The notes under the pieces were generated by a model. It searched no databases. It was not told where the DNA came from and saw only the letters and a program-made list of their open reading frames with translations. A stretch of 64,000 bases of DNA from Natronococcus sp. CG52 (lineage in GTDB: Archaea; Halobacteriota; Halobacteria; Halobacteriales; Natrialbaceae): contig NZ_CP099391.1 of the NCBI RefSeq assembly GCF_023913515.1, positions 2,480,001 through 2,544,000 of the forward strand, read 5' to 3'. Every line of letters begins with the position of its first letter. The stretch's first letter is position 1. Position numbers and translations under genes: made by a program. This document shows, one piece after another, positions 12,241-38,612 of the stretch.

Positions 12241-12411
12241 CTATTAAATCCGTTGGTCGAAATACCACCGAGAAATTCTATTCACCCTTACAGTTTGGAC
12301 GGTATTCGGCAATTCGCGGCAAATCACATATCGAGCTTCAAAGACACCCGGAGCCACCTTTGGAGAACAGCAGCGTTAACTCTTACATAGTTTAGACACT
12401 ACTGTGAATTA

Positions 12412-13017
12412 TGAGCTATCATACATACGAGGCTGAGCAAGCCGACAGATTAGAAGATGCAGCGTCTCGCTACCGGTACTCTCCGCTGAAGAACTTCTCT
12501 GGAGTGTTTCCCCTTCGGATGACGATGTAATCGCCGATCTCGGAAGTGAACCGGTTTCTATACGGACGATCTTTCCCCACACGTAGGCCAAGCGTATGCT
12601 GTCGACGTGCAGGAAGCAATGCATGACTATTACCTCGAAAAGGGGGTTCCCGAGAACGTCGCACTCGTCACAGCAGAAATCAGCGATCTACAGGTTGAAC
12701 AGGGCGAGTGCCTCGGGGCTTGTCCCCGAGGTACTTCACCGTTCGATACCGACTTCCTTGCTACTGTAGTTTCGACAATGACCTACCACGAGTTCGCTAG
12801 TTCCGATGCATTGCAAGAACTCGCACGAGTCGTTAGTTCGGGGGGTCGGCTCGCTATCGCCGACTGGTCAGCTGATGGTCGTGGAGAGGCTGGTCCACCG
12901 TTAGACGAACGATTTACTGCCGAAGAGGCGGTGTCCTCGCTTCAGAATCATGGCTTCAAAATTCAGCACGAAGCTACACGAACTGAGACGTTCGTTCTTG
13001 TTGGAGTTCGAGAGTAG
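12412..13017 (+). pseudogene. Class I SAM methyltransferase, frameshifted and carrying a 48-bp insertion
   Basis: The pieces join into one haloarchaeal methyltransferase: MSYHTYEAEQADRLEDAASRYRY, a frameshift near 12478, then SAEELLWSVSPSDDDVIADLGS, a second frameshift near 12550 in the SAM motif (expected GTGFYTDD), then AYAVDVQEAMHDYYLEKGVPENVALVTAEISDL. The latter half has STMTYHEF, ALQELARVVSSGGRLAIADW and GEAGPPLDERF. Between DL and PFDTDF sits an extra 16-codon segment that is the palindromic element at 12691-12738. It lies divergently from the rhodanese-MBL gene. Because of the two frameshifts the gene is probably dead, although the insertion itself is in frame. Confidence 0.75.
12691..12738 (-). 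repeat. Palindromic element PE1, copy A (in-frame insertion)
   Basis: A 48-bp insertion with stem CCTCGGGG (12711-12718) and CCCCGAGG (12724-12731) and a 5-nt loop. Its reverse complement reads GGTGAAGTACCTCGGGG, then ACAAGCCCCGAGGCACTCG, closely matching the copies at 18023-18076 and 38415-38524. In the methyltransferase frame it encodes QVEQGECLGACPRGTS without a stop. Confidence 0.75.
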
Positions 13018-17920: not shown

Positions 17921-18022
17921 TCGCCGTTTTTGAGTACGCCACACTTCGAGCAGAACCGCTAACTAATAGTAGTCCAAAATATTGTACGTATTAAGAAATA
18001 CTAAAATGCAACCAGCCGAAGC

Positions 18023-18076
18023 GGTGAACAGCCTCGGGGTCAAGCCCCGAGGCACTCGGCCTGCCCCGCCTGTAGA
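18023..18076 (+). repeat. Palindromic element PE1, copy B (in-frame insertion)
   Basis: A 54-bp element: GGTGAACA, stem GCCTCGGGG (18031-18039), loop TCAAG, stem CCCCGAGGC (18045-18053), tail ACTCGGCCTGCCCCGCC, TGTAGA. It is open in the rhodanese frame, encoding about 16 residues (NSLGVKPRGTRPAPPV), between MQPAEAV and DQRENVF. It lies opposite in orientation to copy A relative to its host gene. Confidence 0.7.
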
Positions 18077-18120
18077 CCAGCGTGAGAACGTGTTCATCCT
18101 CGATATTCGACCGCAGTATG

Positions 18121-18214
18121 GAATCCGACTCAGCCGATTAACGGCAACTACGTAGTCGAGTGACGCGATTCACGCCCGCCCTAAAGGGCGGGATTCTCTC
18201 GCTGTTTGAAGATA
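18121..18214 (+). repeat. 94-bp palindromic element, copy 1
   Basis: Identical over 94 bp to 27925-28018. It contains the perfect hairpin CCCGCCC TAAA GGGCGGG and ends GCTGTTTGAAGATA. The left junction (CAGTATG) and right junction (GTTTCGAGG) rejoin the rhodanese frame exactly, so this is a clean insertion and not a rearrangement. No gene is carried. It resembles the short palindrome-associated IS200/IS605-derived elements described in haloarchaea. Confidence 0.8.
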
Positions 18215-18335
18215 GTTTCGAGGAAGAGCATATTCCAGACAGTCACAATCTGCCCATCTACGACCAACTCGAGGGGAAGAATTTCATTGGTCTCGATGCC
18301 TCACTTGATGATCTGCCGGAAGATCGAGTTGTACT

Positions 18336-18668
18336 TTCGGGGTCGACTGGCGGTGAATATCGAGCGTTCGGTCGATACCCTCGAGAAGTCGGTACAGTGT
18401 TTTGAATCGAGAGTGGTCCTCCCAGCAGTTGACGGACTGGTAGTTGAGGCTGATAACTGATTCGCGTAGTTTGGTAGTGGTGTACTGCGCGATACAGGTC
18501 TTTCCCGCACCGGAAGGGCCGAACAGGAATGATGTTTCAACCTGTTCGCCGTCAGTGATGGGTCGTAGCGCACTGGAGAGATGATTGATCTCGACGTCAC
18601 GATGCACGACATCTTTCGGTACGAATTCCGACTGGAATACGCGTGCATCTGTTATCGTTGTGGAGTAA
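18336..18668 (-). pseudogene. Orc1/Cdc6 N-terminal fragment
   Basis: The minus strand reads [48 protein letters not shown] (Walker A GPSGAGKT), [20 protein letters not shown] and IHRQSTPK, then stops making sense at 18336. This is the first third of an AAA+ Orc1/Cdc6 replication initiator, differing from the intact gene at 60504. It is truncated at the junction with the broken rhodanese, and no start codon is clear. From 18669 to 18909 only a possible inverted repeat (CGGCCCAA/TTGGGCCG) is noted. Confidence 0.7.
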
Positions 18669-27820: not shown

Positions 27821-27945
27821 TGGAACGCAAGCAGATAACGATCCGAGAGGATCAGGTCGAATGGATCGACGAGAACCACATCAACCTATCCAGCCTCGTG
27901 AGAGGCTGTATCGACGAACGGATGGAATCCGACTCAGCCGATTAA
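27820..27945 (+). CDS. Small ribbon-helix-helix protein, 41 aa
   Basis: MERKQITIREDQVEWIDENHINLSSLVRGCIDERMESDSAD. Strand KQITIRE and helices DQVEWIDEN and NLSSLVRGCIDERM make an RHH (Arc/MetJ-like) DNA-binding fold. The last seven codons (ESDSAD and stop) lie within the 94-bp element, so its C-terminus was changed by that insertion. It could be an orphan antitoxin-like or transposon-linked regulator. Confidence 0.5.
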   Translation: MERKQITIREDQVEWIDENHINLSSLVRGCIDERMESDSAD

Positions 27946-28018
27946 CGGCAACTACGTAGTCGAGTGACGCGATTCACGCCCGCCCTAAAGGGCGGGATTC
28001 TCTCGCTGTTTGAAGATA
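27925..28018 (+). repeat. 94-bp palindromic element, copy 2
   Basis: Identical over 94 bp to 18121-18214, with hairpin CCCGCCC TAAA GGGCGGG and right end TTTGAAGATA. The left flank ends ATG in both copies; the right flanks diverge after one G. It supplies the stop codon of the small RHH gene. From 28019 to 28287 no gene is seen. Confidence 0.8.
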
Positions 28019-28287
28019 GACGACCACTCCGTGCGGGAGTGACGAGCTGTCGCGATTGGGTGAGTTGGTATGCAGAGGGAGTTGTTCGTTGGCCGATTCC
28101 ACTGCTGCCACTACTTCCAGCGGCTACTCCATTCTGGGTTGTGTACATACGATTTCGTATCCCTTACAGAACCGTAACGCAGTAGCGGCCACGGTTTGCC
28201 GGACAAACCAACATCTATCGCTTCGGTTGCACAGCCCGCATGTTCCAAGGATGTCGCTCAGCGGTCGGCAGTGATAGGCGGCGCCAC

Positions 28288-38244: not shown

Positions 38245-38414
38245 CTAGGCCTTGTTTAGATGCTTGAATTCATCGGCTGTACCCTCGTCGACGATCTCCG
38301 TTCCGGCGTTGACCAGTTCCTCGAGCGTACGGAGATCATCTTCGTCGTACCCGACCTTCTCGAAGACGATGAGATTGTACTGGAATAAGACCGGGTTCGA
38401 CTTCCAAGGCGCTT
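38245..38414 (-). pseudogene. C-terminal fragment of an unknown gene next to a palindromic insertion
   Basis: The frame reads EAPWKSNPVLFQYNLIVFEKVGYDEDDLRTLEELVNAGTEIVDEGTADEFKHLNKA and looks like a true protein end. Upstream it runs without a stop into the palindromic element (38415-38524). The original N-terminal part is not found beyond it, where a glycosyltransferase tail lies on the other strand. I do not recognise the family. The gap 38093-38244 includes the repeated tail motif noted at 24326. Confidence 0.45.
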
Positions 38415-38524
38415 CGTGAACCGCCTCGGGGTCAAGTGGTTCGAGACGCCAAAGGCGTCTCGTCATCACGGAAATCGAAGATTTCCGAACGACCCCGTGG
38501 CACTCGGCCTGCTCCGCCTGTAGA
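38415..38524 (+). repeat. Palindromic element PE1, copy C (expanded by nested hairpins)
   Basis: Outer sequence GTGAACCGCCTCGGGGTCAA and CCCCGTGGCACTCGGCCTGC, CCGCCTGTAGA matches copy B (18023-18076). In place of its 5-nt loop there are two nested perfect hairpins: GAGACGCC-AAA-GGCGTCTC (38443-38461) and CGGAAATC-GAA-GATTTCCG (38469-38487). Length is 110 bp against 54. The reverse strand stays open across it in frame with the 38245 fragment. Confidence 0.75.
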
Positions 38525-38526
38525 AT

Positions 38527-38612
38527 CTGGTCGTCCTGTTCGCGATGCTGTTCAATATGCAGGCCAGCACAGAGTGTGAGATCCAGATTCGCGAGGAAGG
38601 GCACACGGAGAC
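38527..38612 (+). other. Glycosyltransferase C-terminal tail fragment
   Basis: The plus strand reads LVVLFAMLFNMQASTECEIQIREEG. This is closely related to the end of the GT2 at 42092-43189 (MFAMLFDMQVNKDSEVQIHE) and to the shorter fragment at 3676. It is probably debris of a lost GT2 gene at the edge of the glycan region. Confidence 0.5.

Follow-up and report, generated by a model that had tools for sequence, protein, structure and literature searches.

A short palindrome recurs in the 64,000-nucleotide stretch of Natronococcus sp. CG52 DNA analysed here (hereinafter the window; G000:C1:2480001-2544000, from a genome of 4.74 Mb), and we conclude with high confidence that it is a core-deleted insertion of the IS200/IS605 family, i.e., a terminal-only PATE, of which there are three copies in the window. 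The palindrome common to them is matched four times against 0.1 matches expected by chance per window, and none of 100 shuffles of the window contained as many. The original prediction had placed such palindromes at 12691-12738, 18023-18076 and 38415-38524; they are real and non-random, and their exact limits, set by comparing the copies with each other and with empty sites, are 12692-12739 (plus strand), 18024-18071 (minus strand) and 38416-38519 (minus strand). The first copy is a 48-bp fusion of IS200/IS605 left and right tips that adjoins the target pentanucleotide TCTAC at 12687-12691 (plus strand) in a methyltransferase locus, and this TCTAC is probably the TAM of a lost tnpB. It belongs to a subfamily marked by CTTGT / GTACTTCAC that is also present in the genomes G009, G035, G044, G053, G057, G059 and G072. 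The second, likewise a 48-bp terminal-only form, is of the consensus subfamily, and its minus-strand target, TCTAC, lies at 18072-18076. The third measures 104 bp, since its 48 bp are interrupted by a second element of 56 bp nested in them, and has its TCTAC at 38520-38524, again on the minus strand.

Derivation from IS200/IS605 elements

Read in the orientation of its parents, the element has the form AGGCGGGGCAGGCCGAGT-GCCTCGGGGCTTGACCCCGAGG-CGGTTCAC and lies nearly always 3′ of TCTAC, its 48 bp being made up of an 18-nt left tip, a 22-nt palindrome and an 8-nt right tip. Full-length parents (LE/tnpA/tnpB/RE) were found in G090 (two), G087, G093 and G034, with the left end TCTAC|AGGCGGAACAGGCCGAGTGCCTCGGGGCTTGACCCCGAGG and the right end ..CCACGGGAAGCCTCGGGGCTTGACCCCGAGGCGGTTCAC. 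They carry an IS200-type tnpA and, on the opposite strand, a tnpB, with Pfam matches to Y1_Tnp (PF01797, 6.8e-39) and the TnpB domain (PF07282, 1e-16). The 22-bp palindrome GCCTCGGGGCTTGACCCCGAGG is a direct repeat near both ends of the parents, and the fusion of a parent's two repeats yields the 48-bp form to the base. The copies have a TCTAC target and a TTCAC end (136 of 141), with no target duplication, and the T at −5 preceding CTAC, a position outside the search pattern, is present in 137 of the 141. A separate search with the right-end pattern returned chiefly short copies and another subfamily. Thus, the marks of a PATE are all found here, namely a parent-related near-terminal palindrome, a fixed short target, no duplication and a length too short for a transposase gene, and repeat-mediated core deletion is indicated by one orthologous trio (the DUF6735 gene, see below). 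A classification as MITEs does not fit, as AGGCGG.. and ..GTTCAC at the two tips do not form inverted repeats and the target is not duplicated.

The original prediction knew of no described haloarchaeal counterpart, but one exists: terminal-only PATEs of IS605 type have been in print since 2011, when Dyall-Smith et al. reported PATEs of Haloquadratum walsbyi that are relatives of IS605-type elements and lose their core via 19–22-bp near-terminal direct repeats (PMC3119063). In that work ISHwa23 is reduced from 1500 bp to 52 bp through a 19-bp repeat and HqIRS46 through a 22-bp repeat, and 52-bp terminal-only elements hint at movement of the short form (PMC3119063). Our elements resemble these in a length of about 50 bp, a near-terminal palindrome, deletion through 19–22-bp direct repeats, the absence of target duplication and a target oligonucleotide of 4–5 bp. 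However, they constitute another sequence family (TCTAC target, CCTCGGGG palindrome) and display, for one gene, the empty site, the full element and the scar, as well as in-frame retention in otherwise intact genes; of such retention inside genes we found no mention in the main text of PMC3119063. With IS608 and ISDra2 of the IS200/IS605 family they share a Y1 tnpA plus tnpB, subterminal palindromes and insertion 3′ of a fixed short target without duplication, whereas the 48-bp form is gene-less and has one palindrome only.

Full-length IS200/IS605 elements insert after 5′-TCTAC, and we propose that the core is then lost by repeat-mediated deletion, via slippage or recombination, between the direct repeats; in some lineages the short form might have been transposed by TnpA in trans. 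What is left in a gene is usually in frame and adds a peptide like RRSRPSASGLDPEAVH, because the element is 48 bp (3 × 16) and the target within genes is nearly always read as xTC TAC|. That the 48 bp keep the frame was correctly foreseen from the window alone. Annotators should be aware that peptides such as RRSRPSASGLDPEAVH in haloarchaeal proteins are transposon scars.

In-frame carriers and damaged host genes

The DUF6735 gene (PF20509) occurs in three states in three related genomes. It is empty in G059 (..GACAGCACCGTCTAC|ACGTACGGCGGAGC..; ..GTCTAC|ACGTAC..), is interrupted at the same base in G057 by a tnpA/tnpB element of about 2.1 kb, whose left palindrome is short by 4 bases, and carries the 48-bp form in G058, where the frame is kept, RRSRPSASGLDPEAVH is added and the ORF is otherwise intact. 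This trio is most simply read as core deletion from the full element. The 48-bp and full states could also stem from two independent insertions at one TCTAC, which is possible but less likely; the identity of the tips is weak evidence in this regard because they are of the commonest type. The trio thus offers a natural experiment on how genes regain readability after an IS200/IS605 insertion.

Comparably, a NAD/FAD oxidoreductase of G023 has 396 aa as opposed to 380 in its 92–93% identical orthologues, the 16 extra residues being the element, and a PQQ-propeller gene of G089 (L123) bears the element in frame near the C-terminus. The predicted insert peptides of G058-type and G023-type strains are RRSRPSASGLDPEAVH and RLSRPSASGLDPEAVH. 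Judging from the reading frames of the G023 oxidoreductase and the G058 DUF6735 gene, clean in-frame insertions in otherwise intact ORFs do occur. Homologues free of the insert, a point on which the original prediction hinged, are indeed found, with exact empty sites for the methyltransferase (in G027), DUF6735 (in G059) and the oxidoreductase (in its orthologues). Two further candidates for intact carriers were rejected. The NorB gene of G062 (L178) is truncated, its N-terminal domain running straight into a short C-terminal part, and to judge by the usual length of NorB the middle seems to be deleted; the 48-bp copy in it (G062:C3:45327) is positioned as if the deletion had ended at the element. 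The gene at L143 in G053, without a Pfam match and presumably 5′-nucleotidase-like by its type of sequence, seems to have a later frameshift.

The window's own host genes are in a different condition. The methyltransferase remnant (12411-13017, plus strand) differs from an intact, 85%-identical homologue in G027, which has a Methyltransf_11 domain in Pfam, by the insert and by two 1-base deletions upstream of it (near 12478/12479 and 12547/12548). The homologue lacks exactly these 48 bases (GATCT|CCCGTTCGATACCGAC), and the insert, precisely 48 nt and in frame, encodes QVEQGECLGACPRGTS between DL and PFDTDF. Accordingly, the 16 in-frame codons originally claimed for this gene stand, but their host has two further frameshifts, and as a result of the two missing bases only a 136-aa ORF is left; these single-base losses may be sequencing errors. 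We also considered whether the stop-avoiding CTTGTCCCC in place of CTTGACCCC, which opens the methyltransferase frame, was a mutation specific to this gene, and discarded the idea since it marks a subfamily of many genomes and sites.

The rhodanese-like gene remnant (18006-18407, plus strand) has two inserts. Across the first, of 48 nt, the frame is open, in agreement with the roughly 16 in-frame codons claimed for it, but the second, a 98-bp repeat (18118-18215, plus strand), brings stop codons. This repeat is identical to 27922-28019, holds a CGCCCGCCCTAAAGGGCGGG palindrome and appears to be the end of a different mobile element. At the third site lies a gene fragment without a Pfam family (38245-38560, minus strand), in which a minus-strand reading of haloarchaeal character (..ILNSIANRTTRFY|EAPWKSNPVLFQYNLIVFEKVGYDEDD..), with ..RTTRFY|EAPWKSNPVLFQYN.. 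continuous, is unbroken only once the 104-bp insert is removed. With the insert kept, the upstream frame meets two stops, and the insert is out of frame (104 mod 3 = 2). The minus frame that had been noted as open through 38415 is fortuitous, as it joins two different phases. Thus, each of the window's three host genes looks damaged and none intact. Between about 21926 and 36164 (G000:C1:2501926-2516164) there are four tnpB matches in 15 kb, of which one contains an internal stop and another is reduced to a short remnant; IS605-type elements and damaged genes abound in this region.

Placement relative to genes and alternative readings

Copies are present in 65 of 125 genomes of the family and in 101 of 392 sampled genomes of the order (44 of 95 genera), with no match to a reversed control pattern in either set. 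Their positions were classified with an author-made codon-usage score on short flanks, the model for which was trained on the loci themselves. By this test, which gives false negatives (the window methyltransferase passes at the weakest setting only), an open coding-like frame surrounds 1–4 of about 140 copies at the stricter settings and 7 of 141 at the weakest, as compared to 35–55% of random positions at the same loci. Set against TCTAC control sites, 2–3% of the copies are intragenic versus 45–53% of the controls (Fisher p 8e-25 to 2e-30). In a sample from other families none of 35 copies is intragenic at the two stricter settings, the weakest adding a single weak call, for which the frame is short, versus 86 of 162 controls. 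In-gene copies are rare, at about 2–5% of 141 in the family. Purifying selection is the simplest explanation for this depletion. The consensus element has a stop in two of its six frames. Nearly all of the intragenic copies share one phase, which we had considered as a sign of coding selection. However, phase 0 is also found in 87–89% of intragenic TCTAC sites, and the one-sided phase of the copies follows from xTC TAC being common in codon-biased genes.

These figures bear directly on the view that the palindrome is a haloarchaeal counterpart of the Rickettsia palindromic elements, spreading preferentially into genes in frame and retained as a peptide. The two are alike in being palindromic and able to extend a protein by a peptide read in frame, and 48 bp equal 16 codons, with clean in-frame insertions in the oxidoreductase and DUF6735 genes. 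However, the Rickettsia elements are about 150 bp long with nearly half of them inside genes (PMC10969869), whereas ours are of 48 bp and of known IS605 parentage, and the high share of in-frame copies in genes that would be expected of such an element gives way to 2–5% versus about 50% at the same target. Hits being mainly intergenic had been named beforehand as the outcome that would refute this view, and mainly intergenic they are. The empty result for the 35 copies from other families at the stricter settings, the damaged hosts in the window, the out-of-frame insert at 38416, a target that by itself accounts for the phase and the lack of any intragenic copy among sites shared between species all speak against it too. 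As a general rule this view is already refuted, and we consider it very improbable; the likeness is one of effect only. The documented transposon origin thus displaces a tempting claim of peptide-adding elements in archaea.

Even less credible, to the point of being negligible, is that the copies are ordinary host sequence devoid of mobility, such as terminator-like or REP hairpins. The strong hairpin and mostly intergenic placement would suit this, but the sharp boundaries and fixed TCTAC target do not, and the exact empty sites in homologues already refute it. A more serious contender, to which we give somewhat less than even credence, is that the 48-bp form is itself mobile as a minimal two-ended PATE, served by TnpA in trans, with most copies, including those of the window, having inserted as 48 bp. 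It draws on near-identical subfamily copies at several sites per genome (e.g., CTACAGGCTGAGTAGGG..CTTGTCCCCGAGGTACTTCAC in G059, G057, G053 and G072) and on the six strain-specific insertions in Haloquadratum, all of 52 bp (PMC3119063). Conversely, the full element at one site in a sister genome favors local deletion, and a single shared palindrome may not offer TnpA two separate ends to pair. For the majority of copies, those of the window among them, deletion and short-form mobilization cannot be separated.

According to a proposal by Karvelis et al. (2021), the donor joint left by precise excision is cut by TnpB (PMC8612924). If valid here, TnpB would cut the restored junction at the TCTAC target, so that clean loss would be opposed and the scar would be the favored way back to a readable gene. 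Core deletion might then be a built-in healing route, in which TnpB opposes clean excision and the 48-bp scar keeps the junction interrupted, in frame by construction. Haloarchaeal proteins would in that case gain a standard 16-residue insert recurrently, through IS605 insertion and subsequent core deletion; we raise this tentatively and deem it rather unlikely.

A nested double-hairpin repeat

The 56-bp element within the third copy (38437-38492, plus strand) follows GGGGTCAAG in the loop of the PATE palindrome and has the form TGGTTCGA-stem-CGTCATCACG-stem-CGAACGA. Double hairpins of this form (TGGTTCGA-stem1-CGTCATCACG-stem2-CGAACGA, 54–66 bp) were found in 94 of 125 genomes, a count in which a few entries look like chance matches, with none for a reversed control pattern. 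Among 32 full copies there are 29 and 26 different stem sequences, with stem pairs nearly all Watson-Crick and up to four pair types per position; the stems are highly variable yet covarying. For at least 5 of 33 copies the site is the loop of an IS605/PATE palindrome, and the loci of the hairpins include, besides 38437-38492, L264 in the G057 tnpA, L127 and L274-L303.

Rfam has no family for the nested element and literature searches returned no match to it. It is like SMR-A of Haloquadratum in lying inside near-terminal palindromes of IS605/PATE elements and in the lack of target duplication, but SMR-A measures about 110 bp and has prominent inverted terminal repeats, whereas the nested element has 54–66 bp, two variable hairpins and fixed linkers. 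Hence, it is a second widespread small repeat, for which we found no description. One 54-bp copy lies in frame within the tnpA of the G057 element (L264). Also at L264, an unrelated 51-bp double hairpin, TCAAGCAAAGCGAAGCTTTGCGTACCTCGCGGGATCTTCGATCCCGCTCAG, lies in that tnpA on the plus strand (offset ~1942-1992), in frame after CPK.
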